From Paramicrobacterium fandaimingii (GTDB lineage Bacteria; Actinomycetota; Actinomycetes; Actinomycetales; Microbacteriaceae), in NCBI RefSeq assembly GCF_011751745.2, contig NZ_CP061170.1, forward strand, positions 930,001 to 994,000: a DNA stretch of 64,000 nt, written 5' to 3'. The notes below the pieces were generated by a model. It was not told the origin of the DNA. It did no database searches and saw nothing but the letters and a program-made list of their open reading frames with translations. A program made the translations under genes and the position numbers. This document shows positions 1,636-15,558 of this stretch, one piece after another; position 1 is the first letter of the stretch; each line of letters starts with the position of its first letter.

Positions 1636-1653
1636 GCCTCTGAGTCCCTGACG

Positions 1654-1751
1654 CGCGCACTCGCGTGCCACTCAAGCGCGCACAATCGCGTGCCACTTTT
1701 TGCTGAAATTTCGTCGCTGAAGGAGCAAAGAATGGCACGCGATTGTGCGCG
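1654..1751. repeat. Repeat triplet with perfect 19-bp inverted repeat (candidate bidirectional terminator)
   Basis: Bases 1677-1695 (CGCGCACAATCGCGTGCCA) are the exact reverse complement of 1733-1751, with 37 bases between. A near-identical direct copy lacking AA precedes it at 1654-1672. The element lies between the convergent ends of nagB and tatA, where a hairpin could end transcription from both sides; it has no strong T-run. A dispersed palindromic repeat is the alternative. Confidence 0.6.
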
Positions 1752-1835
1752 GCTGAGACGTCTGCGGCGCGGACCCCGGGTACGGATGCGCAGGGCGCGG
1801 GCGCACACAGGTACAGACGTGTGGGATGCTCGGCG

Positions 1836-2102
1836 CTAGGCGGTGTCGTTGCGTGGCGCTGTGGCTTCCGCGGCCGGAGCCGGACCAGCGGCCGTGGCTG
1901 AAGCGGGTGCCGGTGTGGCGTCCGCCGGTGCAGCGGTGCTGGTTGCATCGCTATCGCTGGAGACCTCGCGAACTTCCTTCTTGAAGATCTTCATCGACTC
2001 GCCGACGCTCTTGGCAAGGCCCGGCAGCTTGGGAGCCCCGAACAGCAGCAGCACGATGAACAGAATGATGACGAAGTGCCATCCGGTGAGATTGGCGAGC
2101 AT
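1836..2102 (-). CDS. tatA: Sec-independent translocase protein TatA
   Basis: TatA is the pore-forming subunit of the twin-arginine pathway, exporting folded proteins. The 88-residue product has the classic layout: a single N-terminal membrane helix (LTGWHFVIILFIVLLLFG), a PKLPGLAKSVGESM amphipathic hinge and helix, then an acidic Ala/Pro-rich tail. The start at 2102 is chosen over the ATG at 2114 because the codons of the longer form contain the GGAGG that fits as ribosome binding site for the inner ATG. It stands alone, convergent with nagB. A TATGCT -10 box lies at 2145-2150, followed by a 12-bp palindrome. Confidence 0.88.
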   Translation of the reverse strand: MLANLTGWHFVIILFIVLLLFGAPKLPGLAKSVGESMKIFKKEVREVSSDSDATSTAAPADATPAPASATAAGPAPAAEATAPRNDTA

Positions 2103-2128
2103 GCGGACCTCCACGTCGAAACGCTCAA

Positions 2129-2150
2129 AGACTTAAGTCTCTCCAGCATA
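2129..2150 (-). promoter_or_regulatory. tatA promoter with palindrome at the start of the transcript
   Basis: Reading on the minus strand, a TATGCT -10 box (2145-2150) is followed by the perfect 12-bp palindrome AGACTTAAGTCT (2129-2140), which overlaps the expected transcription start. It could be an operator or a 5' mRNA hairpin. No regulator can be assigned. Confidence 0.4.
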
Positions 2151-2221
2151 AGCGCTGCGCTCGGTTCTTGCTGAGAATCGGGGTCGGGTCGAGAATCAGG
2201 GCCGCGCGCAGAACCTGAGCG

Positions 2222-3577
2222 TCAGAACACCTTGCCGGGGTTCAGGATGCCCAGAGGGTCGAACACCTGCTTGATCTGCCGCTGCAGGTCGAGCTGATCC
2301 TCGCCAAGCTCGTCGCCAAGCCACCGCTTCTTGAGAATGCCGATGCCGTGCTCGCCCGTGAGCGTGCCGCCGAGCTTCAGCGCTGCCAGAAACAACTCGT
2401 CTGCCGCCGCCCATACCTGATCGGGAACGTCCGGCCCGTCAAAGATGAAGTTGGGGTGAAGATTGCCGTCTCCCGCATGAGCGAGCGTGGGGATCGTGAT
2501 GCCGAACTTCTTCTCGATCGCGGCGATCGCATCGAACATGTCGGGCAGCGCCGTGCGCGGAACCGAGACGTCTTCAATGAGCGTCGTTCCCAGCGCCTCG
2601 AGCGACGGGTGTGCGGCACGACGGATGGCGAGCAGCTTCTCTGCCTCGTCGCGGTCGGTTGTCATGTCGGCATCGCCGCCGCGACCTGTGATGATCTCGA
2701 GTGCTCTGTGGGCATCTTCTGCCGCGCCGGGGCCGTCGAACTGCACAGCGAGATGCGCGTTGCCCCGCTGCGCGAGCGAGCTGCCGACGAATGCGTCGAT
2801 CGCGCGCAGCACAGACGGGTCGATGAGCTCCATCACGGCGGGCTGCAGACCCGCTGCGGTGATCGCGGCGGATGCTGCGGCGGCATCCCGAACCCCGGGA
2901 TAGAACGAGGCGATGGCTGCCAACGTTCCGGCCACCTCCCGGCGAATGCGCACCGTCGCCTCGACGATGACTCCGAGCAGCCCTTCCGACCCGACCATCA
3001 GTGCCGTGAGGTCGAGGCCCGTAACGCCCTTGACGCTGCGATGGCCAAGGGTGAGCAGCCGGCCGTCCGGCAGCACCACCTTCAGGCCAAGAACAGCATC
3101 GCGCGTCACACCGTACTTGGCGCACAGCAGTCCGCCCGCGTTCGTCGCGATGTTTCCGCCGACCGTCGAGATCGCCTTCGACGCCGGATCAGGCGCGAAC
3201 CACAGACCCTGTTCGCCGAGAATCTCGTTGAACCGGCCATTCAGGATGCCGGGTTCGACAACGGCGAGCAGATCGGACTCGTTGATCTCGAGCACTCGGT
3301 CCATCGCGAGGGTCGAGAGCACGATCTCGCCTGAGCTGGCGATGGCTCCTCCCGCGAGCCCTGTGCCAGCGCCGCGCGTCACGACGGGCGTGCGCGTCTG
3401 CGTCGCGATGCGCATCGTCGTCTGTACGTCAGCGATGGTGCGGGCGGTGACGACGGCGAGCGGTGCGGCGGCCGAGCTATGGCCCGACTTGTCCAAGCGC
3501 ATTGCGTCGAGCTGCGCGGCATCCGTCGATACCGCATCGCCCAGCGCCTCGGCGAGCTGGGCCGCCACATCAGTCAT
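2222..3577 (-). CDS. FAD-binding oxidase, GlcD/D-lactate dehydrogenase type
   Basis: This 451-residue flavoprotein oxidises a 2-hydroxyacid such as glycolate or D-lactate. The N-terminal FAD_binding_4 domain (about residues 35-175) shows the PVVTRGAGTGLAGGA pyrophosphate loop and GGNIATNAGG. The C-terminal FAD-oxidase_C domain ends with HAGDGNLHPNFIF and GEHGIGILK, the usual metal/substrate motifs. Length equals typical GlcD. The start overlaps the end of the upstream YrdB-like gene by 8 bases, so the two are translationally coupled. There is no GlcE or GlcF partner, favouring a single-subunit D-lactate or glycolate dehydrogenase. Substrate is not determined by sequence. Confidence 0.85.
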   Translation of the reverse strand: MTDVAAQLAEALGDAVSTDAAQLDAMRLDKSGHSSAAAPLAVVTARTIADVQTTMRIATQTRTPVVTRGAGTGLAGGAIASSGEIVLSTLAMDRVLEINESDLLAVVEPGILNGRFNEILGEQGLWFAPDPASKAISTVGGNIATNAGGLLCAKYGVTRDAVLGLKVVLPDGRLLTLGHRSVKGVTGLDLTALMVGSEGLLGVIVEATVRIRREVAGTLAAIASFYPGVRDAAAASAAITAAGLQPAVMELIDPSVLRAIDAFVGSSLAQRGNAHLAVQFDGPGAAEDAHRALEIITGRGGDADMTTDRDEAEKLLAIRRAAHPSLEALGTTLIEDVSVPRTALPDMFDAIAAIEKKFGITIPTLAHAGDGNLHPNFIFDGPDVPDQVWAAADELFLAALKLGGTLTGEHGIGILKKRWLGDELGEDQLDLQRQIKQVFDPLGILNPGKVF

Positions 3578-3932
3578 GGTTGCCGATCTCCCTGCGCCCG
3601 CTCATGACGCCGCTTGTGACAGCGACAACGGCGAAGATTACCGCGACGATGGGCTGCCCCATGTCCCACCATGCGAAGACCGCGGTGCCCATCACGGCGA
3701 TCTCGACGATGGCTTTGCCGAAGACATCCATCTGGAACACCGCCTTGGGGGAGCGGAACAGTGCCCAGAGCACGATGGCGATCACGGGTGCGCCGATGCC
3801 CACGACGACATTCCAGGGCAGAGCGAAGCAGATGAAGCCCCAGAGGCCAAGGGAGACGAATGCGAAGATCTCGAGAACGAACCGCACGATGTCGATGACG
3901 CTGACGCGAACGGGTTCAGATGTTGAAGTCAC
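3570..3932 (-). CDS. YrdB/DUF2568-family small membrane protein
   Basis: A 120-residue integral membrane protein with about four hydrophobic helices and few charged residues until the short basic C-terminus. The pattern FVLEIFAFVSLGLWG followed by ALPWNVVVGIGAPV is that of the YrdB (DUF2568) family, whose function is unknown. The GTG start at 3932 is supported by a TAGACT box exactly 6 bases upstream, indicating a leaderless transcript. It is first in a two-gene unit with the GlcD-type oxidase; a role linked to that enzyme is only inferred from the overlap. Confidence 0.75.
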   Translation of the reverse strand: MTSTSEPVRVSVIDIVRFVLEIFAFVSLGLWGFICFALPWNVVVGIGAPVIAIVLWALFRSPKAVFQMDVFGKAIVEIAVMGTAVFAWWDMGQPIVAVIFAVVAVTSGVMSGRREIGNHD

Positions 3933-3938
3933 ACATCA

Positions 3939-3944
3939 AGTCTA
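3939..3944 (-). promoter_or_regulatory. -10 box of a leaderless promoter (YrdB/oxidase operon)
   Basis: TAGACT on the minus strand ends 6 bases before the GTG start at 3932, so transcription should begin at or next to the start codon. No Shine-Dalgarno sequence is present. Confidence 0.5.
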
Positions 3945-3974
3945 CGATGCCTCATGGCGCCGGTCGGCGCGGCG

Positions 3975-4739
3975 TCAAGCGCCGGGGCGCCCAACGCGCG
4001 ACAGGAACGCTTGCGTCTCGGCCTGCTGTGGATGGTCGAAGAGTTGCTCCGGCGTACCGGCCTCAATGATGCGGCCCTGCGAGAGGAAAATGACGCGGTC
4101 GGCGACCCTGCGGGCGAATGACATCTCGTGCGTCGCCATGACCATCGTGCTCCCCGCCTGTTTCAGCTCACCGACGAGATCGAGCACTTCGCCGACCAGC
4201 TGAGGATCGAGGGCGCTCGTGATCTCGTCGAGAAGCAGCAGTTCGGGCTCTGTCGCGATGGCGCGCGCGATCGCGACGCGCTGCTGCTGCCCTCCCGAGA
4301 GCCGGTCGGGGTACTCGGCAGCCTTCTCTTCCAGGCCGATGCGCCGCAGCAGCTCTCGTGCGCGTGACTCCGCCTCGGTCTTTCCGATGCCGAAGACGTT
4401 GCGGCTCGCCAACGTGATGTTGTGCAGAACAGAGAGGTGGGGAAAGAGGTTGTAGTGCTGAAAGACGACGCCGATGCGTGCGCGCACGCGATCGGCGTTC
4501 ACGCGGGGATCGGTGATGTCATCGCCCTGCAAGAAGATCTGGCCGTCATCGACGCGCTCAAGAAGGTTGATGGTCTTCAGCAGCGTTGACTTTCCTGATC
4601 CGCTCGCGCCGATCAAAGCAACAACGTCGTGTTCGGCGACATCGATGTCGATGCCCTGCAGCACGGCAGTATCGTCGAACCACTTCTGCACACCGGTGAC
4701 GCGAAGCACAGGCTCTGGCGTGGCGGGTCGCTCGCTCAT
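3975..4739 (-). CDS. Polar amino-acid ABC transporter, ATP-binding protein
   Basis: ATPase of a GlnQ/ArtP-type importer, 254 residues. All nucleotide-binding motifs are present: Walker A GASGSGKST, the Q-loop region VVFQHYNLFPHLSVL, signature LSGGQQQRVAIARAI, Walker B ELLLLDEITSALDP and the switch His in ATHEM. The start at 4739 forms a 4-base ATGA overlap with the permease gene upstream. It is the last gene of the binding protein-permease-ATPase operon covering 3975-6483. The substrate is probably a polar amino acid; which one cannot be read from sequence. Confidence 0.93.
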   Translation of the reverse strand: MSERPATPEPVLRVTGVQKWFDDTAVLQGIDIDVAEHDVVALIGASGSGKSTLLKTINLLERVDDGQIFLQGDDITDPRVNADRVRARIGVVFQHYNLFPHLSVLHNITLASRNVFGIGKTEAESRARELLRRIGLEEKAAEYPDRLSGGQQQRVAIARAIATEPELLLLDEITSALDPQLVGEVLDLVGELKQAGSTMVMATHEMSFARRVADRVIFLSQGRIIEAGTPEQLFDHPQQAETQAFLSRVGRPGA

Positions 4740-5620
4740 ACCTGTCCTCCCACCTGCTCGCGGCGTTGCGCTCGCGCCGTGTACCAGTCGGTGAGCCGGA
4801 TCATCGGCCACGACAGCAGCACGAAGAGGATGCCCGCAACAACGTATGGCGTGAAGTTGTAGATGCTCGCGACTTCGATCTGCGCGGCTCGGATCGCGTC
4901 GACGGCGCCGAGCACGGAAATCAGGCCGACGTCCTTCTGCATCGAGACGAAATCGTTCATGAGAGCCGGTGTCACCTTGCGCACCGCTTGGGGAAGAACG
5001 ACGAGCCGCAGGGTCTTCGAATACCCGAGCCCGAGCGACCGCGCCGCCATCCGCTGTGATGGGTGAACGGCTTCGATTCCCGCGCGCAGCACTTCGGCGA
5101 CGTACGACGAATACGTCAGCGTCAGAGCGACGGTTCCCCACACCTGCATGGGCAGGCGATCGGTGAACCCGAGAGCGGGAATGCCGAAGCCGACGAGATA
5201 GAGAACAAGCAGAAGCGGGATGCCGCGAAAGAAGTCGGTGTAGATCGCGGCGCCGAGGCGGATCGGCGCAAAGACAGCGCCGCGAAGCGTTCGTGCGATG
5301 GCGAGAAGGGAGCCGAAGATTCCCACGAGAATGGCGGCGAAGAAGAGCACCTGAATGTTGAGCCAGAGGCCGACGAGGATGCTGGGAAAGGAGGCCATTG
5401 CGGTCTCGACGTCGAAGAACGAACGGCGCACGTCGTCCCAGCCGGGACTGTTGACGAGCACAATCCACACCACGACGGCGAAGACGATCGTGCTCGCCAC
5501 GCTGATGACCAGCGACCGGAGCGTCTGCTTACGTCGATAGGATCGGCGTTCACGCTCGACGCGGCTGGGTTCAGGCCGCGCAGGGCCCGTAGACGTACTG
5601 GTATCTGCGTCGTTTGTCAC
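4736..5620 (-). CDS. Polar amino-acid ABC transporter, permease
   Basis: A 294-residue inner-membrane permease of the His/Glu/Gln/Arg (HEQRO) type. After a charged cytoplasmic N-terminus of about 35 residues it has a hydrophobic helix, then the conserved core of five helices with the EAA loop EAVHPSQRMAARSLGLGYSK that docks onto the ATPase. DFFRGIPLLLVLYLVGFGIP is typical of this family. No second permease gene is present, so it likely works as a homodimer. It starts 17 bases after the binding-protein gene and overlaps the ATPase gene by 4 bases. Confidence 0.92.
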   Translation of the reverse strand: MTNDADTSTSTGPARPEPSRVERERRSYRRKQTLRSLVISVASTIVFAVVVWIVLVNSPGWDDVRRSFFDVETAMASFPSILVGLWLNIQVLFFAAILVGIFGSLLAIARTLRGAVFAPIRLGAAIYTDFFRGIPLLLVLYLVGFGIPALGFTDRLPMQVWGTVALTLTYSSYVAEVLRAGIEAVHPSQRMAARSLGLGYSKTLRLVVLPQAVRKVTPALMNDFVSMQKDVGLISVLGAVDAIRAAQIEVASIYNFTPYVVAGILFVLLSWPMIRLTDWYTARAQRREQVGGQV

Positions 5621-5637
5621 GAGGTGTTGGGATGCTC

Positions 5638-6483
5638 CTAAGACAGGACTGTGGCGCCGGCGTTGTCAGCGAGCCACTTCTCGGCGAGTTCGTCGAGTGT
5701 GCCGTCGTCGCGGAGTGCATCGACGGCTTCCGTCACCGCATCGGTGAGGGGCGAGTCGTTCTCGAGCAGCAGTGCGAGTTCGTCGCCGCCTTCTGAGCTC
5801 TCGAATTGCCCAACCAGAACGCCGTCGTCGAGCACAGCGTTTGCATTGTAGAACGCCGTGGGAAGGTCGGTGACGAGTGCGTCGATGTTGCCGGCGATGA
5901 GTGCCTGAACCGTATCTTCGTTGCTGTTGAAAATGGCGGGATCCGTGCCGATCGCCTCTTTCACCGCCGCGATCGATGTCGAACCGGCGGCGACGCCGAC
6001 CTTCACATCGGCGAGGTCGGCGAGCGACGTCGCCTCAGCGGCAGAGCTCCCCTCCAGGCTCACGACGCCCTGCGTCGTCTCGTAATAGGGAGATGAGAAG
6101 TCGACGGCCTTTTCGCGGTCGTCGTTTGCCGAGAACTGCTGAATGTTGATGTCGAAGTCCTTGGGCCCGGGCGCGATCACCGTGTCGAACGGAGTGCGAA
6201 TCCAGACGACATCCGACGTATCGAAGCCCAGCTCATCAGCGACGGCGTAGGCGACAGCCGCTTCGAATCCTTCACCCGACTCCGGGTCGTCGTTCTCGAC
6301 CCAGGGCGAGTAGGCAGGCTCGCCTGTCGCGATCGTGAACTTCCCCTGCGTCACGGTCTCCAGGCCGGAGTCGCTGCCGTCGGCGGCATCCTGAGGGGTC
6401 GACGCCGAGCACGCGGACAGCGCGATCATTGTCGCTGCGGCGCTGGCAATGGCAAGTGATCGCAGAACGAAACGAGTTTTCAC
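5638..6483 (-). CDS. Amino-acid ABC transporter, substrate-binding lipoprotein
   Basis: SBP_bac_3 family protein of 281 residues. A signal peptide with basic start and hydrophobic core ends in the lipobox LSAC, so the mature protein is anchored by a lipidated Cys. The domain includes FTIATGEPAYSPWV, a GFEAAVAYAVADELGF segment and AGSTSIAAVKE typical of periplasmic amino-acid binders. The GTG start at 6483 is preferred because it directly precedes the signal peptide and follows GAAGAGGA; a longer ORF to 6555 would bury the signal. It is the first gene of the transporter operon. Confidence 0.9.
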   Translation of the reverse strand: MKTRFVLRSLAIASAAATMIALSACSASTPQDAADGSDSGLETVTQGKFTIATGEPAYSPWVENDDPESGEGFEAAVAYAVADELGFDTSDVVWIRTPFDTVIAPGPKDFDINIQQFSANDDREKAVDFSSPYYETTQGVVSLEGSSAAEATSLADLADVKVGVAAGSTSIAAVKEAIGTDPAIFNSNEDTVQALIAGNIDALVTDLPTAFYNANAVLDDGVLVGQFESSEGGDELALLLENDSPLTDAVTEAVDALRDDGTLDELAEKWLADNAGATVLS

Positions 6484-6588
6484 GGGGGTCCTCTTCAGAT
6501 GCTGGGCGCGCACAGGGAAACGGCGCCACTGAGTAACAATATCGTCGTTCGGCATCCCGGTGCGCGGGCATGACGAATTGTTGCTCTG

Positions 6589-7020
6589 TCAGTCGGCAAG
6601 ACGCCAGTCTGCAAAGTCGAAACCGGGCGTCACAAGGCAGCTGACGAGCACATCGTCGTCGCCCGGGATCGTGCGCTGCCAGCATCCGGCGGGAACGATG
6701 AACTGCTGGCGCGCATTCTCTTTGCCGGGGGAGCCGAGCAGCGCAGTCTCACCGGTCTCGCTTGGGTTGTCGCCCGTGCCCCCGAGCTCCAATCGCAGTG
6801 CGCCCGGCCCATGCCACATCCAGACTTCGTCTGATGCGACAACATGCCAGCGCGAATGCTCTCCTGCGGGCAGCCAGAAATAGATGAGCGTCGCTGCGGG
6901 CCGATCGCCTCCAGGTGTCGCGAGTGCATCGGCGGCCGTGAATGTGCGACGGTACCAGCCGCCTTCGGGATGCTGTTCAAGGTTCAGCTCGCGGATGGCG
7001 TCGAAGGTCATGCTGATCAT
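6589..7020 (-). CDS. DUF985 (cupin_5) family protein
   Basis: A 143-residue single-domain cupin. The family opening LNLEQHPEGGWYRRTF, the central FWLPAGEHSRWHVVASDEVWMWHGPG and the barrel strand FIVPAGCWQR are clear. Members are proposed sugar-epimerase-like or metal-binding cupins; no activity is established for this group. The ATG shares a 4-base ATGA overlap with the stop of the SAH-hydrolase/deaminase fusion gene, so it is co-translated with it. That coupling suggests a role in the same nucleoside or sulfur metabolism, which is inference. Confidence 0.85.
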   Translation of the reverse strand: MISMTFDAIRELNLEQHPEGGWYRRTFTAADALATPGGDRPAATLIYFWLPAGEHSRWHVVASDEVWMWHGPGALRLELGGTGDNPSETGETALLGSPGKENARQQFIVPAGCWQRTIPGDDDVLVSCLVTPGFDFADWRLAD

Positions 7021-10000
7021 TCCTCTCTGCCGTAGACGGTCTCGCCCGCCACGATCGTTCGCCTGCAGGTGCCCGCTCCGGCCTCGACGAGTTCGCTGAG
7101 AGCCTCGCGCGGCGTGGTGTCGGCGACGTCGAAGAACGCCAGGTCGGCGAGGGCACCGACGGCAAGCTGCCCGACGCGCTGCGTTCCGGTGCCGAGCCCG
7201 AGCGCGTGGGCACCGCCGAGCGTGACGGCGTGGAACAGCCGTTGGTGCAGATCGCTCTCTGCATACCCCTGGTCGCGTGCGATTCTGTGCAGCTGCGCGA
7301 CGTCTGCGAGGGGGTCGAGGCTCGGCGATGACGACAGCGAGTCGGTGCCGACCCCGATGAGGTTTCCCTCGCGCAGGTAGGCGGCGACCGGCGGTGCGTC
7401 GAGCCCGATCACCTCGTTCGAGCGTGGGCAGAGCGCGACTGCCGTTCCGCGTGCGCGCAGCAGTGAGCGATCGCGCCCCGTCATGTAGATGCCGTGGGCG
7501 ATGTGACAGTCGGGCCCGAGCACGCCGAGCTGGTCGACGAACTGCGTTGAGCTCACTCCAACGCCGCGGCTGCGCAGTGCCCGGAAGCTCTCGGCGTTCA
7601 ATCCCACCCAGGCATCGTCACTTTCGACGTTCTCGTTTTCGAAGTGCGCCTCGGCCAGGTGGATGTGCAGCCGCATGCCGCGGTTGCGCACGACGTCGGG
7701 GATGTCGAGAAGCGGCTGCACCTCGAGCGAATACGGAGCGTGCGGTGAAACGCCGACGCCGGGGGTTGCCGGCATGCTGTCGAGGTCGGCGATCGCTGCA
7801 TCGCGGCCGTGAGCCCGCCAGTCGGCGTTGCTCCAGCCCATGACTTCCCAATACGCAATGCCGTGCAGTCCCGCGTCGTGCAGCGCCGAGACCGCATCGC
7901 GATCTGTGACGACGTCGGCGAGGGCCGTCGTACCCGTGGCGACGGCGAGCCGTGCACCCTCGGCGGCGGCAGCGCTCCAGTCATGGGCTGCGCCGTTGCG
8001 GTCGTAAACCGCGTCGAACGCCGCTGCCCAGTCGTCGAATCCGTCATAGTGCCGAGTCGCCACATCGGCCATGCGCGTGTACTGAAGGTGCGTGTGCGCG
8101 TTGACGAGCCCAGGCGTGATCACGCCATCCCAGTGCTCTTCGGCAAAGTCGATGCCGGCATCCTGCAGAGATTGCAGCACCCAGGGGCGCTCGCCGACGT
8201 GCAGAATGCGATCACCGCGCACCGCGATCGCTCCGTCGCGAATGCGCGGTGCCGTGACCGGGATCACCAGCGGTGCGCTGTACACCGTGACCGTCGCGTG
8301 TGCGGGCTTTTTCGGTGGAATGCTCGGCGCGCTGAGCACATCGTGCGAATAGCGGCTGCGCTCGGGAGCGGACGGCGCGACCGACGGCGGGGCATCAGAG
8401 CTCGTGGATGCTGCGGCGCCATGCCGCGCGCCGAGTGCGAGCAGCGCGATCTCGTTCTCGCGCTCCGGTGCGAGGTGGTGCAAGCCGGGAGCAAGTGCTG
8501 GGGAGTCCGTGAGCACACCAGCCGCGAGAAGCTGCTCGAGGGCAGCGAGCTGGGCGGCGAACGACAGGTCCATGATCTCGATGGGGTTTCCGCCGGATGC
8601 TGTGTAGTTCACGCCGTGCCCGTGCGCGAGCACGATCACATGGTGGTCTCCGAGAGTGAGGTCGCTGACCTGCGGGCCATGCTCGTTCCACATCGCGTTC
8701 GGTGCGTCGAGCTCGCCATCTGTCCCGCCCGCGACGGCGAAGACTGTCTGCTGTGCCGCGGTGCTGATGAGCTGTTCATCGATGGTGCCGCGCACACCGG
8801 ATGCTGACACCACGATGTCCGCACGGCACACGCCCTCCGCTGCCGGCAGCACCTCGAATCCATCGACTTCAGCCGCGAGCGCCCGCACGGGATCGATCTC
8901 TGTGACAATCACCCGGGCACCCAGCGCTCGTGCATGGCGACAGACGCCTTCGCCGACGGGGCCGTACCCGAGCACGAGCCACGCCGCGGTGAGCGGGTCG
9001 CACTCGCTAATGCCGTCCGACCGCGCTTCGTCGAGCAGGTCGACGATGGCGAAGACGCAGGTCTGCCCTGTGCCATACCTGTTGTCGAACAACGTCTTCA
9101 CGCGGGCGTCGTTGACGGGGATTACGGGAACGGCCAACTCGCCGGCGTGATCCATGTCGCGGAGCGGGCGCACGCCGCTCGTTGTTTCTTCCGCGGCGCC
9201 GCGTAGGTGAGCAATGGCATCCGGATGCTCGTGCACGAGGCGAATCAGGTGTGCGCCGTCGTCGATCAGCAGCTGCGGGTGCCAGCGCACCAGATCCTGT
9301 GCCTGCTCGTCGTCTTCGTCGGCCGTCGCATCGGGGGAGCCCAGCACGACGATGCCGCGTGCGCGCAGCGCTGCCGCAGCTTCGGGGTCCACCTCGTTCG
9401 CGGGTGCGAACACGCGCACGTCGGCGCCTGCGCGAGCCAATTCGATCGCGAGCACAGCGGTCTTGGGCTCGAGCACCAGCACGATCCCGATGCGCACTCC
9501 GCGCACGGCGCCGCTTCCCGCGAGGCGCGACGCCAGGGCGCGCGTGACCGGCATCGCTCCCGCCGCCCAATCGATGCGAATCGATCCGCGGTCGGCAAGA
9601 AAATTCTCGTGAACGGGCGTGGAGCTCCAGGCCGGAGCGCGAAGAATATCGGTATCGATGATGACAACCTCGCCCCGCGGGGCGAGTGCGGCACGCAGTC
9701 CATGCGGAAGCACCCGATCGCTTGCCGCGACATGCGCTGCGAGCCCCGATGCGCTGCTCAGCACAGCCGCGTCATCGACGATGATCGGCGCGTGCGAAGC
9801 CGTGTCGTCGTGTGTCGCCGTCGCGTCGTCGAGCCATACGCGCACCGTAGCCCTCTCAGCATCGGTCAGCACATCGAGAAGAATGAGCACATCGCACTCG
9901 TCGATGGCGACGATGTGGCCGCCCATGCCCTGCACGATCGCCCGCAGCGACGCCGCGGCATCCTGATTTCCGATAATGGCAAACCGCGTGCCGGCGACCA

Positions 10001-10097
10001 GACGGTTCGTGATGCGGTTGAACGCCGCGAGAATCGATGCTGCCTGTTCCCGGTGCTCGGCTGAGGGCGAGGGGGCAGAATCGTCGGGGAGCGGCAC
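7017..10097 (-). CDS. Fusion: S-adenosylhomocysteine hydrolase-like domain + SAH/nucleoside deaminase-type amidohydrolase
   Basis: A 1026-residue protein joining two enzymes. Residues 1-195 form an unassigned, partly Rossmann-like lead. Residues about 195-560 match SAH hydrolase (AHCY): the substrate region with AEETTSGV (Glu303/304), the KTLFDN block (Lys334, Asp338, Asn339), NAD loop GYGPVG (377-382) and TEIDP. The AHCY His of GHFDVE is replaced (AGGTDGELD), and the usual AHCY N-terminus is not recognisable. An Ala/Ser/Pro linker (560-600) leads to an amidohydrolase (600-1026) with metal motifs NAHTH, HIHLAEA, HIAHG and GTDS plus CPRSN, as in SAH/MTA or aminofutalosine deaminases. Start GTG 10097 is supported by TACAAT 6 bases upstream; a longer frame to 10298 runs into the preceding gene. 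Substrates are inferred. Confidence 0.82.
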   Translation of the reverse strand: MPLPDDSAPSPSAEHREQAASILAAFNRITNRLVAGTRFAIIGNQDAAASLRAIVQGMGGHIVAIDECDVLILLDVLTDAERATVRVWLDDATATHDDTASHAPIIVDDAAVLSSASGLAAHVAASDRVLPHGLRAALAPRGEVVIIDTDILRAPAWSSTPVHENFLADRGSIRIDWAAGAMPVTRALASRLAGSGAVRGVRIGIVLVLEPKTAVLAIELARAGADVRVFAPANEVDPEAAAALRARGIVVLGSPDATADEDDEQAQDLVRWHPQLLIDDGAHLIRLVHEHPDAIAHLRGAAEETTSGVRPLRDMDHAGELAVPVIPVNDARVKTLFDNRYGTGQTCVFAIVDLLDEARSDGISECDPLTAAWLVLGYGPVGEGVCRHARALGARVIVTEIDPVRALAAEVDGFEVLPAAEGVCRADIVVSASGVRGTIDEQLISTAAQQTVFAVAGGTDGELDAPNAMWNEHGPQVSDLTLGDHHVIVLAHGHGVNYTASGGNPIEIMDLSFAAQLAALEQLLAAGVLTDSPALAPGLHHLAPERENEIALLALGARHGAAASTSSDAPPSVAPSAPERSRYSHDVLSAPSIPPKKPAHATVTVYSAPLVIPVTAPRIRDGAIAVRGDRILHVGERPWVLQSLQDAGIDFAEEHWDGVITPGLVNAHTHLQYTRMADVATRHYDGFDDWAAAFDAVYDRNGAAHDWSAAAAEGARLAVATGTTALADVVTDRDAVSALHDAGLHGIAYWEVMGWSNADWRAHGRDAAIADLDSMPATPGVGVSPHAPYSLEVQPLLDIPDVVRNRGMRLHIHLAEAHFENENVESDDAWVGLNAESFRALRSRGVGVSSTQFVDQLGVLGPDCHIAHGIYMTGRDRSLLRARGTAVALCPRSNEVIGLDAPPVAAYLREGNLIGVGTDSLSSSPSLDPLADVAQLHRIARDQGYAESDLHQRLFHAVTLGGAHALGLGTGTQRVGQLAVGALADLAFFDVADTTPREALSELVEAGAGTCRRTIVAGETVYGREE

Positions 10098-10103
10098 TCG
10101 CTC

Positions 10104-10109
10104 ATTGTA
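10104..10109 (-). promoter_or_regulatory. -10 box of a leaderless promoter (SAH-hydrolase/deaminase fusion)
   Basis: TACAAT on the minus strand stands 6 bases before the GTG at 10097. A possible TTGCAG -35 lies 19 bases further upstream, inside the end of the preceding gene. There is no clear ribosome binding site. Confidence 0.5.
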
Positions 10110-10123
10110 TTGTGTGGCAGTCG

Positions 10124-11158
10124 CTACGCTGCAACGAAGCCCGGCACATACTGCGCACCGCAGGCCTCTGCCAGCGACGACCCGAAAAGCGCTGCTGGCG
10201 TGAACGCGCCGCCCCGCCCCGCCCCATCGAGCAGGCGGCGCGCGATCTCGGCTGGCACAATTCCGGTGAACGTTGACGCGTCGTCGACCCGCAGCCACCC
10301 GTCACGAACCGTGCCGTCCGACCACTCCACATGGGCGTGACCCCACGAATATTCTCGGGGTCGCGGGGCGGCGGGCACCGACATCCGCGCGAGTAACCGT
10401 TGGGCGAATGCGGCGAGGGGTCGAATCGACAAGAGCGCCGTCGCTACGGGCATCACGAATCGAAACGCTCCGGTCGGGGCCATGCTCGATGCGCCGATCA
10501 CAACCGGTGCTCCGCTGGTGCGCGCCGCAGCCGAACCATCGCCAAGGGGCATGCTCGCGGTCAGAACGTCTGTGCCATCCGGAAGGGTGAGTCGCATCCT
10601 GCGGCTTCCCAGTCGCCCGGCGGCTCGATCGCGGTAAGCGAGACCGCCGATCAGTGAAGCGGCGAGCGATTCCCCGACCTTCCCTGCTTCGGTCTCCATC
10701 GAGGGAACCATATCGACGCGAACGCGAGTGGGTGCGGGGCGGCCTTCGAGCAGTTTGACGAGGATGCTTTCGGATGCCGTGACGCCGAACCCGGCCCCCG
10801 TCACCGCGGTCTGCCCCGCAGACGCGAGCTCGGCGTCTCGCTCAAATAGCGAAGAGAAGGCGGCTCTGTCGTTGGCGATGTCAATGTAGTGAACGCCGGT
10901 CGCGATCAGCGCAGCCGCAGTGTCGGCAAACGGAGCGATGGTGTTGATCACGATCTGCGGACGCTGCCGCCGCACCTCGTCGACGATCTCGTCGATCGAC
11001 GCCGAGACGACAGTTCTGCCGCTCTCGCCCGCTGCCGCAGCGAGCCGCTCGGCATTGCGACCGACCAGCACCGGTTCAATGTGGCGTTGCCGCAACTCGG
11101 CGGCGATTTTCTGTGCGCTGCGGCCTGTGCCACCGAGTATCCATACGTCGTTGCTCAT
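10124..11158 (-). CDS. Saccharopine dehydrogenase-like NAD(P)-binding oxidoreductase
   Basis: A 344-residue Rossmann-fold protein. The N-terminus VWILGGTGRSAQKIAAEL carries the GGTGxxA dinucleotide loop, followed by NTIAPFADTAAALIATGVHYIDIAND, characteristic of the saccharopine dehydrogenase / trans-acting enoyl reductase superfamily. The C-terminal half has no recognised catalytic signature. It faces the TetR gene at 11284 across a region with two identical-arm operators, so the regulator probably represses this gene. The fusion gene downstream has its own promoter inside the end region. Physiological substrate unknown. Confidence 0.75.
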   Translation of the reverse strand: MSNDVWILGGTGRSAQKIAAELRQRHIEPVLVGRNAERLAAAAGESGRTVVSASIDEIVDEVRRQRPQIVINTIAPFADTAAALIATGVHYIDIANDRAAFSSLFERDAELASAGQTAVTGAGFGVTASESILVKLLEGRPAPTRVRVDMVPSMETEAGKVGESLAASLIGGLAYRDRAAGRLGSRRMRLTLPDGTDVLTASMPLGDGSAAARTSGAPVVIGASSMAPTGAFRFVMPVATALLSIRPLAAFAQRLLARMSVPAAPRPREYSWGHAHVEWSDGTVRDGWLRVDDASTFTGIVPAEIARRLLDGAGRGGAFTPAALFGSSLAEACGAQYVPGFVAA

Positions 11159-11218
11159 GCGCTGTTCCCATCTCGTCTATGCGCTTCACGTCTGTGTGCT
11201 TCTCGTTGAGCGCATCGT

Positions 11219-11268
11219 GATGACACGCCATGTCATCACCCTACACCGTGATGACATGACGTGTCATC
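11219..11268. promoter_or_regulatory. Paired TetR-type operators between divergent genes
   Basis: Two 19-bp sites share identical arms: GATGACA-N5-TGTCATC at 11219-11237 and again at 11250-11268. Their centres are 31 bp apart, about three helical turns, so two regulator dimers would bind the same face. The second site abuts the tetR -10 box. The site symmetry and position suggest binding by the adjacent TetR protein. Confidence 0.7.
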
Positions 11269-11271
11269 GGC

Positions 11272-11277
11272 TAGGCT
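11272..11277 (+). promoter_or_regulatory. -10 box of a leaderless promoter (tetR)
   Basis: TAGGCT ends 6 bases before the GTG at 11284. Operator 11250-11268 covers its -35 region, which would give autorepression. Confidence 0.5.
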
Positions 11278-11283
11278 GGAACC

Positions 11284-11859
11284 GTGAGCAGATGGGAACC
11301 CGGCGCGCATCGGAGGCTGGAGAAGGCGGCGTTCGAGCTCTTCGCCGAGCGCGGATTCGCGGCGACGACGGTGCCCGAGATCACAGCGCGCGCAGGATTG
11401 AGCACGCGAACCTTTCACCGGTACTTCGCCGACAAGCGCGAGGTGGTCTTCGGCAGCGAAGAGGTGCGAGCGGAGACCGCGCAGGTGCTCGCTGATTCCC
11501 TGCCCGACACCGAACCGCTTGAGCTCATCATGAGCACTCTGCGCATATTCGCCGAGCAGCGTTTCGAGGGTCGGCGCGACGAGGTGCGGCTGCGTCGGGA
11601 GATCGTGAACTCCGACGCGGGGCTACGCGAGCGCGATCTGCAGAAGCGCGAAACGGTAGGGGCGGTCGCGCGTGAGGCGCTGATTGCGCGCGGCGTGCCC
11701 GCCCGGCAGGCGGCGCTGCTCGCCGAGACCGGCGTCACACTGCTCTATGTCTCGGTGCAGGAATGGCTCGGCCGCGACGACGACACCCCGCTTGCAGACA
11801 TCATCGCCGACACGCTCGAGACTCTGCGCTCTGCCCTGATCTCCGACATCGCCGTCTAG
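11284..11859 (+). CDS. TetR family transcriptional regulator
   Basis: A 191-residue one-component repressor. The N-terminal helix-turn-helix (about residues 8-55) shows the family pattern AAFELFAERGFAATTVPEITARAGLSTRTFHRYFADKRE in pieces: a 'TTVPEIT' first helix and the 'STRTFHRYF' recognition helix. The C-terminal ligand domain is not specific. The GTG start at 11284 follows a TAGGCT box at 6 bases. Twin operators lie between it and the divergent oxidoreductase, its likely target. Its TAG stop shares the bases CTAG with the stop of the convergent DinB-like gene. Confidence 0.9.
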   Translation: MSRWEPGAHRRLEKAAFELFAERGFAATTVPEITARAGLSTRTFHRYFADKREVVFGSEEVRAETAQVLADSLPDTEPLELIMSTLRIFAEQRFEGRRDEVRLRREIVNSDAGLRERDLQKRETVGAVAREALIARGVPARQAALLAETGVTLLYVSVQEWLGRDDDTPLADIIADTLETLRSALISDIAV

Positions 11860-12491
11860 CCGATCCGGCGCCGAAGCTCCGCGACACCGTCGTCGTCAAC
11901 ATCCGTGAGAAATTCACTGCGGCCGGCCATGACCATCACCAGGCTCAGCAGCGGTCCCCGCACGAGTGGCCCGCTGCCCGCAGCGAAGTCGGTGTCGCTG
12001 GCCTCCAACGTGAGCCCCTTGACCATCCGATGGCTGTTGACCGCAAAGTCTTTGGCCGCGAAGTACGTCGCAACCTCGCGCACCGCGTCAGGGTCGGGTG
12101 TGAAAGTGATGCCGAGCGGACGCGCGATGTCTTGACCGTGCACGATGACCTCGCCGAGCCACGCGGGGTAGTCTCGCGTCGGCGCGATGGTGAGTGTCAC
12201 CGAGCGACGAAAGTTCTCACGGGTCTCGTCCACAGTGCGGCCGAGGTGCTCGGCGAGGCGGCGGGCATTGTGCCTGTCGGGGTTGAAACCAGCGAAAAGG
12301 ATGCTGCGCAGCCACGCCCACCGTCCGGTATTCGCGGCAGCGGTGAGGTGGGCGACGACCTGCTGCACCGTCCACTCGCCGCACAGTGAGTCGGCGTGCC
12401 ATTGCTGGGCGGTCAGGCCGTCAAGCATGAGTGCAACACGGGCGCGCTCGGCGTGGATGAGCTCCCAGTACTCGTCTGCGGTTCGCGTCAC
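11856..12491 (-). CDS. TIGR03083 family protein (mycothiol-dependent DinB/maleylpyruvate isomerase type)
   Basis: A 211-residue four-helix-bundle protein of the DinB_2/MDMPI_N family, which in actinobacteria includes mycothiol-dependent enzymes. LCGEWTVQQVVAHLTAAA is the conserved segment with a metal-ligand His, and IVHGQDIARPLG supplies the second conserved His. It is a paralogue of the gene at 12508: the two align from the first residues (ADEYWELIHAERARV against TSEVWTLVHTERQRL). The 16-base gap and same direction suggest one transcription unit. Substrate unknown. Confidence 0.8.
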   Translation of the reverse strand: MTRTADEYWELIHAERARVALMLDGLTAQQWHADSLCGEWTVQQVVAHLTAAANTGRWAWLRSILFAGFNPDRHNARRLAEHLGRTVDETRENFRRSVTLTIAPTRDYPAWLGEVIVHGQDIARPLGITFTPDPDAVREVATYFAAKDFAVNSHRMVKGLTLEASDTDFAAGSGPLVRGPLLSLVMVMAGRSEFLTDVDDDGVAELRRRIG

Positions 12492-12507
12492 GTCGTCCTC
12501 ACGATAC

Positions 12508-13152
12508 TCACCGGCGGAGAGCTCGTTCGACCAACAGGTGGGCGCCCGGCCCGGTCAGAAGCTCGGGGTCGATCGCGCGGCCCGACGCAGCGAGGAGGAG
12601 ATCGACGGCTTCGCCCGTCACATCGGGGCCATCGCCCCACGCGTCGCCGGTAGCGGCGTCGACCAGGCGGCATCCTTCCGCGATCTCCCGACCCCCGCCG
12701 AACGATGCCGGTGTGCGAAGTTGATAGGCGAGCGCCTCATGCACCCCGACGCTGGGGTATTCGCCCGGAATCCCGAGTGGGCGGCGAATGTCTTCCCCAT
12801 GAACGATTGCTTCGACGAGCCGCGTTGCGCGGTGTGCCGGTGGTGTTTTTTGCAGGTGCTCTGCCTGGCGGAAGGCTGCCAAGGTCTGCTGCGGGTCGTC
12901 GCGTTTGAAGCGACTCACGCCGTTGTCGTTTGCGCGGTCGAAGTCGCCCCGTGCGCGCACCATGCTCCAGACAAATGCGCGCTTCCCTGTTGTCGCCGTA
13001 TCGACCAGATGGGCGAGCACATCATGGACGCTCCAGCCTCGGCACAGCGACGGAGTCTCCCACTCTGCGAGTGAGAGCGGTGCGAGATCGGCGATCAGGC
13101 GCTGGCGTTCGGTATGCACGAGCGTCCATACCTCAGATGTGGAGAGCGCCAT
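12508..13152 (-). CDS. TIGR03083 family protein, paralogue of the downstream gene
   Basis: A 214-residue DinB_2/MDMPI-type protein with the two family blocks LCRGWSVHDVLAHLVDTA and AIVHGEDIRRPLG, each carrying a conserved His. The ATG at 13152 is preferred over the ATG at 13176 because AAAGGA stands 8 bases before it and because it aligns with the start of the paralogue. It is divergent from the HxlR regulator, and the shared region holds three evenly spaced AGTAGT repeats, suggesting regulation by that protein. A thiol-dependent detoxification role is inference from the family. Confidence 0.8.
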   Translation of the reverse strand: MALSTSEVWTLVHTERQRLIADLAPLSLAEWETPSLCRGWSVHDVLAHLVDTATTGKRAFVWSMVRARGDFDRANDNGVSRFKRDDPQQTLAAFRQAEHLQKTPPAHRATRLVEAIVHGEDIRRPLGIPGEYPSVGVHEALAYQLRTPASFGGGREIAEGCRLVDAATGDAWGDGPDVTGEAVDLLLAASGRAIDPELLTGPGAHLLVERALRR

Positions 13153-13178
13153 CGCGAGCATCCTTTCGCTTCTCATTT

Positions 13179-13226
13179 AGTAGTCAGGGCTATAGTAAGA
13201 GTAGTATGAGCTACGAGTCAAGTAGT
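13179..13226. promoter_or_regulatory. Three AGTAGT direct repeats at exact 21-bp spacing
   Basis: AGTAGT occurs at 13179-13184, 13200-13205 and 13221-13226, each 21 bp apart, two helical turns. The first two units also share G-GCTA and AG in their spacers. They fill the AT-rich gap between the divergent DinB-like gene and the HxlR gene and are the likely operator array of the HxlR protein. Confidence 0.55.
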
Positions 13227-13239
13227 AAAAGGGAGTACG

Positions 13240-13941
13240 ATGGGGTCTATGGGTGGGAGGCGTTCCTATAGTTCGTATAACGACGGGTGCGCGGCTGCTC
13301 ACGCGCTTGATCTCATCGGTGAACGATGGACATTGATCGTGGTGCGCGAGCTTCTTCTCGGGCCCAAGAGGTTCATCGAGCTTCAGAACGACATTCTCGG
13401 GATCAGTCCGGCCGTGCTCTCGCGTCGTCTGCGTGACCTCGAGGCGCGCGGAATCCTGACACGTCACGCGCTGCCAGCGCCAGCCAAAGTCGATGTCTAC
13501 GAGCTCACTGACTGGGGGCATCAGCTGGAGTCGGTCAATACGGCGCTGTCGATGTGGGCCGTCGCGTCGCCGACGCTTCCCTGGGATGCCGACATGAGCC
13601 CCGACACTCTGGTTCTCGCGATGCGCGCGCACGCCCGAGGCGACGCGACTCTCGCTTCGCCGGTGCGGGTCAACCTGTATTTGTCTGACTCGCGGGTCGA
13701 CGAAGCCGAACCTGTCGCGTACTCGGCAGAGGTCACTCAACACGGCGCAACTGTCGAGAAGGCGCCCACTCCGGGCCCGGCCGACGCGGACGTGTACGCC
13801 ACGACGGCCGGTTGGAAGGCCTGCATCCTGGGAGGGGCAAACTTTCGCGACGTGCCGAGCATCAGTGTCGTCGATAGCGCATTCGCCGTCGACGCCCTCG
13901 TGAGGGCGACCAATCTGAACGGGCGTGCTGAAGACGCCTGA
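13240..13941 (+). CDS. HxlR-type winged-helix regulator with C-terminal sensor domain
   Basis: A 233-residue regulator. Residues 10-100 are a typical HxlR winged helix: CAAAHALDLIGERWTLIVV, ELLLGPKRFIELQ and LSRRLRDLEARGILTR. The remaining 130 residues form an additional C-terminal domain resembling the SCP2-like sterol/ligand-binding extensions seen in long actinobacterial HxlR proteins. ATG 13240 follows AAAGGGAG. HxlR proteins often sense electrophiles or quinones, which fits divergence from two thiol-enzyme-like paralogues; this link is inferred. Confidence 0.82.
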   Translation: MGSMGGRRSYSSYNDGCAAAHALDLIGERWTLIVVRELLLGPKRFIELQNDILGISPAVLSRRLRDLEARGILTRHALPAPAKVDVYELTDWGHQLESVNTALSMWAVASPTLPWDADMSPDTLVLAMRAHARGDATLASPVRVNLYLSDSRVDEAEPVAYSAEVTQHGATVEKAPTPGPADADVYATTAGWKACILGGANFRDVPSISVVDSAFAVDALVRATNLNGRAEDA

Positions 13942-13945
13942 TGCG

Positions 13946-14170
13946 CTACAGCGTCATCGCCGCACAACGTCGCGCAACTGCAGATTCGCAGAATCGTCGA
14001 ACTGGTGGGATGTGAGGAGTCACAGCTTGGGCCGGTTCTGCCGCTTCTTCGGGCTCTGCCTCGTCGGACTTCGGCTCGGTCGCCGTGTCGGCTTCCGTCT
14101 CGGCGGCAGCATCCTCGCTTATTGCCGACGACGTGTTGTCGATGCTTGTGCCGTTCAGCGAGCCTGTCAC
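13946..14170 (-). other. Unassigned stretch with a short acidic open frame
   Basis: No convincing gene lies between the HxlR stop and the rhuM fragment. On the minus strand a 74-codon frame reads as a Ser/Thr-rich start then an Ala/Glu-rich acidic stretch (DAAAETEADTATEP), like the tail of a larger actinobacterial protein. It has no binding site or promoter and a stop lies 12 codons above the GTG. It may be a relic of a lost gene or chance. Confidence 0.25.
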
Positions 14171-14270
14171 AGACGAGATCGGGCTTGAAACAACTCAGAT
14201 TGGCATGCCGCTGGAGTATACGTCTCGATGAGCTTCGGGCATTGTCAGCGGTCCAAGGAAGAATGATGCT

Positions 14271-14723
14271 ATGAACGCGATTGAACTGTACGAATCAGCG
14301 TCAGGCGAAATTATTCTTGAAGTGCGCGCAGGCGACGATACTGTCTGGCTGACCCGCCAGCAGATGGCAGCCCTATTTGGACGCGACGTGAAGACCATTG
14401 GTAAACACATCGCAAACGCGCGGAACGAGGAGCTATCGAAGATGTCAGGTGTCGCAAAATTTGCGACACCTGCTTCAGACGGCAAGTCCTACGAAACCGA
14501 GCACTACAATCTCGATGCCGTTCTTTCAGTCGGCTATCGGGTTAAGTCATCAGAGGGTGTTCATTTTCGTCGTTGGGCCACCGACGTCTTGCGCCGGTAC
14601 GTCGAGCTGGGGCAGGTCGTCACGAGAGCTGATGGTGGCGCTGATTATCAAGATGCTCGAAACCGCGTAGCATCCGAAACCTATGTGCACGGGGCTGTGC
14701 GGGTGAGCGCTGCTGTCAACTGA
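14271..14723 (+). pseudogene. rhuM: Truncated RhuM-family protein
   Basis: The first 110 codons match the RhuM (virulence-associated, Fic/Bro-N-linked) family: VWLTRQQMAALFGRDVKTIGKHI, VAKFATPASDGKSYETEHYNLD and VLSVGYRVKSSEGVHFRRWATDVL. Normal members have over 300 residues; here the homology stops soon after RRYVELGQ and the frame closes at residue 150, so the C-terminal two thirds are gone. ATG 14271 has a good binding site AAGGAAG at 14255-14261, so a short protein may still be made. The break lies beside a VapBC module in a degraded islet. Role of intact RhuM is unknown. Confidence 0.75.
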
Positions 14724-15138
14724 GCAGCTCGACCTCGAGGGACTGATGGCGCCCGGCAAATGCGCGGTCAAGGGTCACAACTGAGAGGCCGCGAGCCTGA
14801 GCGAATGCGGCCAGGTAGTCGTCCGTCCACAGCTTGTGGCTTGTGTCGCCCCGGGCGGAAAGGGTCCGCCATACAGATTCGAGGTTCGTAGGTTCCTCGA
14901 GGTGTATCACTCGTTCGTCAGCGCGAAGGCGATCGAGGACTGACCAGCTGTCGGCTCGCGTAAGGGTGTCCTCGCGCATGATGCTCGGATTCGACAGCAA
15001 TCGGAGAAAGCCCATCTCGGTGACTCGACAGAAGACGAGTTCGGAGTCCTGCTGATCAAACCACGACTGCACGGTTGGATGTGCGATATGGCGGCCCCAG
15101 GCGGCCGCGAGCCACACGCCGACATCCAGAAGTTTCAC
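14716..15138 (-). CDS. PIN-domain ribonuclease toxin (VapC-like)
   Basis: A 140-residue PIN-domain protein. Acidic residues expected at the metal site are present: LLDVGVWLAA at the N-terminus, an internal Glu in VTEMGFLRLL, and TDDYLAAFAQ plus TLDRAF near the C-terminus. VapC toxins are Mg-dependent endonucleases that cut tRNA or rRNA. It overlaps the antitoxin gene by 4 bases (ATGA) and its end overlaps the convergent truncated rhuM by 8 bases. It is probably functional judging by intact motifs and normal length. Confidence 0.85.
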   Translation of the reverse strand: MKLLDVGVWLAAAWGRHIAHPTVQSWFDQQDSELVFCRVTEMGFLRLLSNPSIMREDTLTRADSWSVLDRLRADERVIHLEEPTNLESVWRTLSARGDTSHKLWTDDYLAAFAQARGLSVVTLDRAFAGRHQSLEVELLS

Positions 15139-15380
15139 TTGGCGTACTGTTCGTCGTCAGATGCCAGGGCCGCTGCGATATCGTCCGATGTGACGTTCAC
15201 CGTTGGTGTCGCCCCCGCGGCGACAAGCGGCAGAGTCACTCGCGTATGTGTGTTCGTGCTGCCAGCGATTTCGCGGGAGATCGCGCGCGTCAGCACAACC
15301 TTGAGCGTCTCGCCTCGCTGTGCCGCTCTCACCTTGAGAGCGCGAAGCAGATCATCGGGGAGATCAACCGTTGTGCGCAT
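15135..15380 (-). CDS. Ribbon-helix-helix antitoxin (VapB-like)
   Basis: An 81-residue protein with the RHH start MRTTVDLPDDLLRALKVRA, then a flexible acidic tail that would wrap the toxin. It pairs with the overlapping PIN toxin gene. The ATG at 15380 follows a TAATAT box by 6 bases without a ribosome binding site, so a leaderless transcript is likely; the complex normally represses its own promoter. Confidence 0.85.
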   Translation of the reverse strand: MRTTVDLPDDLLRALKVRAAQRGETLKVVLTRAISREIAGSTNTHTRVTLPLVAAGATPTVNVTSDDIAAALASDDEQYAK

Positions 15381-15386
15381 AAAAAC

Positions 15387-15392
15387 ATATTA
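15387..15392 (-). promoter_or_regulatory. -10 box of a leaderless promoter (first vapBC)
   Basis: TAATAT on the minus strand stands 6 bases before the ATG at 15380, in a short AT-rich patch with a second TAATGC-like copy just upstream. Confidence 0.5.
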
Positions 15393-15420
15393 GCATTAGC
15401 GACGAGAGCCAGCGGTACTC

Positions 15421-15558
15421 GTATTCTGGACGGCCCGGCATTCCGCGGCGAGGTGGCGTGGCCGCCTGCTTCATCTCGACAAGGTATTCGAGACGGCGCC
15501 GCGTAGTGACACGAGACAGATCGTGGCGGTCGCTGAGCTTCGTCGCCGAGAGCGCCAA
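15421..15558 (-). pseudogene. C-terminal fragment of a CitB/DcuR-type response regulator
   Basis: On the minus strand about 46 codons encode the DNA-binding tail of CitB/DpiA/DcuR response regulators: LSRVTTRRRLEYLVE (family form SRVTARRYLEYL) and GRPEYEYRWL at the end. The receiver domain and most of the protein are missing; homology begins abruptly at about 15558. Intact members control dicarboxylate or citrate transporters such as DctA, and a piece of dctA begins within a few bases on the other strand. No start signal, so not expressed as a protein. Confidence 0.7.

Follow-up and report, generated by a model that had tools for sequence, protein, structure and literature searches.

A rare fusion of a histidine-less adenosylhomocysteinase-like domain with a deaminase in Paramicrobacterium fandaimingii and its possible role in nucleoside salvage

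Results

A rare fusion protein

The window studied here, a stretch of 64,000 nucleotides of the Paramicrobacterium fandaimingii genome (contig NZ_CP061170.1, positions 930,001 to 994,000), carries at 7017-10097 of its reverse strand a gene in which a domain resembling S-adenosylhomocysteine (SAH) hydrolase (SAHH) is joined to a complete adenosine-deaminase-type amidohydrolase (Table 1). The SAHH-like part of this fusion and its relatives, which lack the catalytic histidine, are referred to as SAHHL. It is possible, with a probability that we put at roughly 45%, that the fusion protein is an enzyme of a nucleoside salvage module, which would combine the import, the deamination and the NAD-dependent processing by SAHHL of an adenosine nucleoside.

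The uninterrupted frame with an AHCY-like core, an Ala/Ser/Pro linker and an amidohydrolase, as described in the initial annotation, is indeed present, and the residues and motifs listed there (Lys334, Asp338, Asn339, GYGPVG, NAHTH, HIHLAEA, HIAHG and GTDS) are all found at the expected places. The GTG start is backed by a 'QYNE(R/Q)VP' context that is common to two congeners. The survey of relatives that had been suggested found the fusion again: both domains (PF05221 and PF01979) occur in one protein in 20 of the 52 homologues obtained by the homologue search (P0001-P0020), and in the genomes of two congeners (G148 and G085) a stop-free frame extends across query residues 1-1026. Among the 33 SAHHL-containing genomes of the family, three, the host (G000) and two of its genus, have the fusion in a single frame that covers all of the query. 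In a locus survey, which covered the best 80 of the 319 named-genome relatives of the deaminase, four loci are fused, namely a Microbacterium sp. record (which is the congener G085), two from Leucobacter and one from Rarobacter. Clearly, the fusion is real but rare. Relatives with two separate genes, considered beforehand as a sign of an assembly merge, are in the majority (68 of the 72 loci that have both), but a merge is excluded because the fusion recurs in independent assemblies. Two other proteins were set aside as fusion evidence: a deaminase-cupin protein (P0022), which looks frameshifted, and a deaminase-phosphoribosyltransferase protein (P0023), which lies on a contig of 2 kb and seems chimeric. 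The linker region (residues 561-605) has a dN/dS of 0.58-0.67 between the congeners.

The SAHH-like domain

The first domain is AHCY-like, as had been proposed: it scores above the cut-offs of the Pfam profiles AdoHcyase_NAD and AdoHcyase, reaches the cut-off of NF004005 (294.2 bits, cut-off 275) and stays below that of TIGR00936 (260.5 bits, cut-off 497.6), while the alignment, the AlphaFold2 (AF2) model and the fold matches agree on an SAHH fold with an NAD-binding domain over the full AHCY length. The reported replacement of the catalytic His is confirmed and is general, as this position is Val in 99, Ile in 16, Phe in seven and Leu in one of the 123 rows (113 distinct) of the SAHHL residue alignment, and His in none. 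The gate His is a Gly in all 123 rows, and the residues listed for the next position (Val 66, Ile 41, Gly 8, Thr 7) do not include Phe. The Glu and Lys of the HxExK motif, the NAD glycines, both Asp of the DDG motif, and Lys334, Asp338, Asn339, Glu304 and Asp280 are invariant (123/123); among these invariant positions are those that we take to be human Glu156, Lys186, Asp190 and Asn191. As judged from the alignment, what SAHHL has lost are the two histidines on the 5' side, while its base pocket and 3'-redox set are kept; a pattern as uniform as this does not resemble decay.

In a 56-row tree with midpoint root, the true SAHHL rows form a single group (28 rows, support 100/99), in which the domains from tandem SAHH proteins and from genome G069 are sister to the remainder; two tree rows labelled SAHHL (P0025_d0 and P0028_d0) are truncated partner domains. 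By its residues and its place in this tree, the SAHHL part is a distinct, His-less SAHH clade of its own. In the residue alignment the partner group consists of seven distinct proteins in nine rows (the P0025_d0 and P0028_d0 proteins being counted twice), and the HxTxE comparison group of 14 rows from the class-wide search, without L001. In that search 119 of 394 genomes match the SAHHL profile at 1e-85, which is no measure of the spread of SAHHL, because the 14 such rows placed in the tree are HxTxE-type SAHHs. Within the family, SAHHL is separated from other SAHHs by score (at least 217 bits versus at most 176 bits), one row of 176 bits being the tandem partner gene of G069.

The SAHHs and S-inosylhomocysteine hydrolases (SIHHs) of the HxExK type, from T. 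maritima, P. furiosus, M. jannaschii and M. maripaludis, share with SAHHL the full-length alignment, the fold, the Glu and Lys of the base pocket, the NAD loop and the Lys, Asp and Asn residues. In contrast, in the window protein the catalytic His, the gate His-Phe and the His of GHP are replaced, and a degenerate second cofactor domain and the fused deaminase are added. According to excerpts of PMC10978960, HxExK enzymes prefer S-inosylhomocysteine (SIH), the Lys of the motif can bond to the O6 of hypoxanthine, the His of the motif has an important part in catalysis, and the gate His touches O5' or swings out in the SIH-bound state. The loss of the 5'-side pair with preservation of the 3'-side redox set would also suit a lyase or nucleosidase, in which 3'-oxidation would be followed by the loss of hypoxanthine or of a proton-free leaving group (for example a sulfonium), without hydrolysis at C5'. 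In line with this, adenine or hypoxanthine is given as a side product in all set-ups in the same excerpts, and the gate residue, proposed there to protect the keto intermediates, is gone from SAHHL. However, a Gly at the gate could merely admit a larger 5' substituent, and SAHHL is considered unlikely to be such a lyase or nucleosidase.

A second, short (mostly ~392 residues) HxExK SAHH branch also occurs in Microbacteriaceae (L134-L146), having Asp131 replaced by Asn, Asp190 by Glu and His353 by Asn in the 10 rows aligned; in nine of 13 loci its neighbours are genes of an adenosine deaminase and an inosine-uridine nucleoside hydrolase (counted by hand, one locus typed).

The N-terminal lead

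The lead that precedes the SAHHL domain had been described as 195 residues of unknown type. A lead is present, but it is shorter (~160 residues) and can be typed as a degenerate SAHH cofactor domain. By hhalign, residues 20-67 correspond to the beginning of the SAHH NAD domain, and the match takes in the 'TN.l.AG' end of the helix before it (probability 91-92, P ~1e-6); in the controls, the reversed alignment gave a P of 0.5 and the lowest P of 30 column shuffles was 0.21, and an earlier, poorer N-terminal alignment has the same register (probability 7.7, P 0.0045). For residues 68-167, profile comparison with the SAHH cofactor domain gave no sequence signal (P 0.23); in the AF2 model of the lead, compared by eye, the order of strands and helices is like that of the cofactor domain minus one piece. 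Residues 1-110 evolve fast (dN/dS 0.42-0.45 between congeners), and the VIA-align rows barely reach residues 1-160, so that this test is uninformative on the N-terminus.

The tandem proteins (P0021 and P0024-P0029) and the gene pair of G069 have the same His-less domain as the window protein, as seen in the tree, and in these a complete, His-containing HxExK SAHH takes the place of the lead. This suggests that the window protein once had a catalytic SAHH partner, since lost, of which the lead seems to be all that is kept. Such a tandem, a complete HxExK SAHH followed by a His-less SAHH, is found at L034:7032-9559.

The deaminase domain and its origin

The second domain scores 109.5 bits with Amidohydro_1 (cut-off 25), and the HxH, H and D residues and the Glu, which presumably act as metal ligands and as acid-base residue, respectively, are found in all 88 deaminase rows (cog0402 type). 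It stays below the cut-offs of the equivalog profiles for aminofutalosine deaminase (NF006269, 92.4, cut-off 320) and for methylthioadenosine (MTA)/SAH deaminase (NF012037, 43.6, cut-off 779), the fold of the MTA/SAH deaminases being matched. The fold and the metal ligands are shared with aminofutalosine deaminases (DR_0824, Nis_0429 and H. pylori AFLDA) and with MTA/SAH deaminases (TM0936 and the C. violaceum enzyme), and the window deaminase is ~40-45% identical to deaminases that adjoin menaquinone genes in other Actinomycetes. At 1e-75 its profile matches 22 of 394 genomes at the class level and 26 of 248 at the order level (deaminase alone scored). Thirteen of the 19 deaminase loci outside the family (L169-L187) have an MqnC-type radical SAM cluster gene nearby, as counted by hand; the neighbours in the Pfam-typed locus L184 are MqnC-type, UbiE, FAD reductase and complex I genes, and one gene of L174 is PF02621.

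This relationship raises the question of whether the module could act on (amino)futalosine, the deaminase having kept an ancestral substrate. The closest solved sequence is indeed DR_0824, which we take to be the aminofutalosine deaminase of Goble 2013, and the best fold matches include the enzymes of H. pylori and Nitratiruptor. Yet PF02621 (MqnA/D) matches only two of the 199 family genomes, partially and with ~34 bits, and has no match in the host genome, in which MenD is present; the operon is also another one. Moreover, two pocket residues are switched: residue 698 is Tyr in 88/88 SAHHL-type deaminases and Arg in 14 of 16 outgroup sequences, and residue 871 is Tyr in 88/88 and His in 16/16 (the outgroup being 16 sequences of loci L169-L187, some of which lack Mqn neighbours; the metal ligands are common to both groups). 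A futalosine substrate is therefore very improbable. From the alignments and neighbouring genes we infer that the deaminase was derived from menaquinone synthesis, and the two switched residues suggest a change of the 5' substituent.

Gene order and co-occurrence

SAHHL is found in the flank of the deaminase in 72 of the best 80 loci. The order SAHHL, deaminase, cupin, binding protein, permease and ATPase on one strand is seen in 54 of the 80 loci, and the same order without the cupin in 15, together 69/80. The genes are 3.5-4 kb apart (SAHHL to deaminase) in L075 and L077. In three loci of one genus (L037, L038 and L041) a CbiQ-type gene adjoins the deaminase, and in the typed one, L038, SAHHL and deaminase are separated by an ECF ATPase, an S component and CbiQ; in G069 the genes between the two are of another ABC type. 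Among the loci without SAHHL, the contig begins at the deaminase in L066, and untyped frames precede the deaminase in L074. An Amidohydro_3 gene stands at the place of SAHHL in L059 (338-2233, a 6-kb contig of an uncultured Leucobacter). Five Microbacterium loci (L076, L089, L100, L103 and L119) have the deaminase and cupin alone, one typed locus of this kind adjoining the genes of ribosomal proteins S6, S18 and L9.

Of the 199 family genomes surveyed, 69 match the fused protein somewhere at 1e-30 (at most four candidates were scored per genome). By hand count, 33 have SAHHL, 33 the deaminase, 32 both and 165 neither. The SAHHL-deaminase pairing looks functional, because 32 of the 33 genomes with SAHHL hold the deaminase versus one of the 166 without it (Fisher p 1e-34, uncorrected for kinship).

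SAHHL could alternatively be a non-catalytic regulator that senses NAD(H) or a nucleoside for the deaminase, a situation for which the AHCYL group of SAHH-like proteins in eukaryotes reportedly offers a comparison. The absence of the catalytic and gate His from every SAHHL row would agree with this, as would the tighter constraint on the deaminase (dN/dS between congeners 0.05-0.08) than on SAHHL (0.15-0.17) and the five of 80 loci that retain deaminase and cupin but neither SAHHL nor transporter. On the other hand, the invariant Lys334, Asp338, Asn339, Glu304 and Asp280 are residues that would be expected for redox chemistry beyond mere binding, and a purely regulatory SAHHL is regarded as improbable.

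In the binding protein, Arg147 and Asp230 are strongly conserved (84/84 rows) and align with the Arg and Asp of AncQR, which presumably hold the carboxylate and the amino group of the amino acid. The DUF985 cupin, suggested earlier as a co-translated third partner, is recurrent, being present in the 54 ordered loci, and in the window its gene overlaps with the fusion. By analogy, the cupin may handle a nucleoside or sugar product: as stated in parts of PMC11594714, the DUF985 structure 3LZZ contains GDP, and part of PMC8704077 cites a proposed isomerase role for another DUF985 protein.

Table 1. Positions of the fused gene, of its domains and key residues, and of the neighbouring genes in the window
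Feature	Position	Strand	Basis
Fused gene, 1026 aa, GTG start at 10097	7017..10097	-	Single open frame with both domains
Degenerate SAHH cofactor-binding (Rossmann) domain, residues 13-153, without Gly-rich loop	9639..10061	-	hhalign, AF2 model
SAHH-like domain, residues 162-560	8418..9614	-	Profiles, full-length alignment, fold
VLEPK, residues 208-212, the HxExK base-binding motif with His replaced by Val	9462..9476	-	Alignment; meaning of motif from excerpts of PMC10978960
Lys334, Asp338, Asn339 (residues 334-339), kept redox residues	9081..9098	-	Alignment
GYGPVG, residues 377-382, NAD loop	8952..8969	-	Alignment
Gly458, replacing the gate His	8724..8726	-	Gly in 123/123 SAHHL rows
Asn504, replacing the His of GHP	8586..8588	-	Asn in 122/123 SAHHL rows, one gap
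Ala/Ser/Pro linker, residues 563-599, disordered	8301..8411	-	pLDDT <50
Amidohydrolase (deaminase) domain, residues 603-1026; Tyr698 and Tyr871 are the switched pocket positions	7020..8291	-	Pfam, fold, alignment
DUF985 cupin	6589..7020	-	PF06172, 133.7 bits (cut-off 25); start overlaps fusion stop (ATGA)
Family-3 solute-binding lipoprotein, Arg147 and Asp230 invariant	5638..6555	-	SBP_bac_3, 74.9 bits (cut-off 26.4)
ABC permease, polar amino acid type	4736..5620	-	Profile matches
ABC ATPase, polar amino acid type	3975..4745	-	Profile matches
GlcD-like FAD oxidase and DUF2568 protein, downstream of the ABC genes	2222-3932	Same as ABC genes	

Frames that resemble the GlcD-like oxidase and DUF2568 genes in size and place also occur in L054. 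The open reading frame cluster c5, which is probably an antisense frame of the ATPase gene, was left aside.

Discussion

Proposed pathway

The domains, the conserved residues, the gene order and the co-occurrence of the genes are the observations with which a pathway has to agree; we infer the substrate and the order of the steps as follows. The family-3 ABC transporter would import an adenosine nucleoside that bears an alpha-amino-acid group (SAH or one of its close relatives being most likely), and the amidohydrolase domain would remove the 6-amino group to give the inosine form (from SAH, SIH). This product would be handed to the tethered SAHHL domain, of which the pocket with Glu210 and Lys212 fits hypoxanthine, and SAHHL, binding NAD, would oxidize the 3'-OH by means of Lys334, Asp338 and Asn339. 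As the two 5'-side histidines are missing, the last step may be either a His-independent elimination of the 5' substituent or the release of the base; the role of the cupin in the module is putative. SAH is the leading candidate substrate, as it would fit all three parts (transporter, deaminase and SAHHL).

The initial annotation had presented hydrolysis and deamination as alternative routes of SAH breakdown. A functional pairing of the two domains agrees with the present results, but the Glu..Lys pocket of the inosine-preferring SAHHs makes it more likely that deamination and the SAHHL step are consecutive, as in Methanocaldococcus. In the DadD and SIHH route of that genus, as given in excerpts of PMC10978960, an adenosine-type deaminase is likewise paired with a hypoxanthine-type SAHH; there, these are two separately named enzymes and the hydrolase has its His, whereas here they form one polypeptide, or an operon with a transporter, in Actinomycetes.

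Several points weigh against the salvage reading. The absence of the gate His and of the catalytic His, important according to the excerpts of PMC10978960, makes ordinary SIH hydrolysis by SAHHL doubtful. The host has a normal ahcY, so SAH recycling is already covered. Eight of the 80 loci have the deaminase without SAHHL, and it is from two aligned residues of the binding protein (Arg147 and Asp230) that the ligand is taken to be amino-acid-like. No known riboswitch was found at Rfam thresholds in eight relatives, nor in the window at 1-20000, where seven microRNA-family matches far below the gathering scores were taken as chance. By hand counts, ahcY is above the cut-off in 19 of 33 genomes with SAHHL versus 128 of 166 without it (p 0.03, uncorrected for kinship); among the ahcY-less genomes, a nucleosidase is above the cut-off in four of 14 with SAHHL versus 15 of 38 without it (p 0.53). 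The genomes with neither gene above the cut-off are 10 of 14 and 23 of 38 (some of the latter incomplete), respectively. If the SAHHL module replaced ahcY or the MTA/SAH nucleosidase, complementary presence patterns would be predicted; the patterns are not clearly so, and this replacement is unsupported. Separately, genome G014, rated 100% complete, has an ahcY model match of just 7e-6, no SAHHL and no MTA/SAH nucleosidase match, leaving its SAH disposal unexplained.

Implications

No description of this fusion or of the His-less SAHH clade is apparent in the open-licence PubMed Central literature, screened mostly by title and start of abstract, with most subscription papers outside this scope. 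The sources that name the fused proteins mostly say 'adenosylhomocysteinase'; as all 123 SAHHL rows lack the catalytic His, the methyl cycle of these Actinomycetes may have been reconstructed wrongly. The fusion and the transporter point to an undescribed route for the import and breakdown of a modified nucleoside. In addition, the case illustrates the way in which a deaminase of menaquinone synthesis may have been taken over by another pathway. As reported in excerpts of PMC10978960, an SAH deaminase and SIH were found in a Streptomyces in 1988, and a hydrolase for the next step has yet to be found there, as none of the Streptomyces SAHHs tested cleaved SIH. The joining of a deaminase to an inosine-type SAHH in Actinomycetes makes a Streptomyces-like SIH route testable, Streptomyces itself being outside the survey.

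It is conceivable, although rather doubtful, that the His-less clade performs a reaction new to the SAHH fold, in which the NAD-dependent 3'-oxidation of a deaminated, 5'-modified nucleoside would be followed by base release or by a His-free elimination, fed by the tethered deaminase and a dedicated importer. If true, bacteria would have a further means of dismantling SAH-like nucleosides, in addition to the hydrolysis that SAHH performs and the cleavage by the MTA/SAH nucleosidase.

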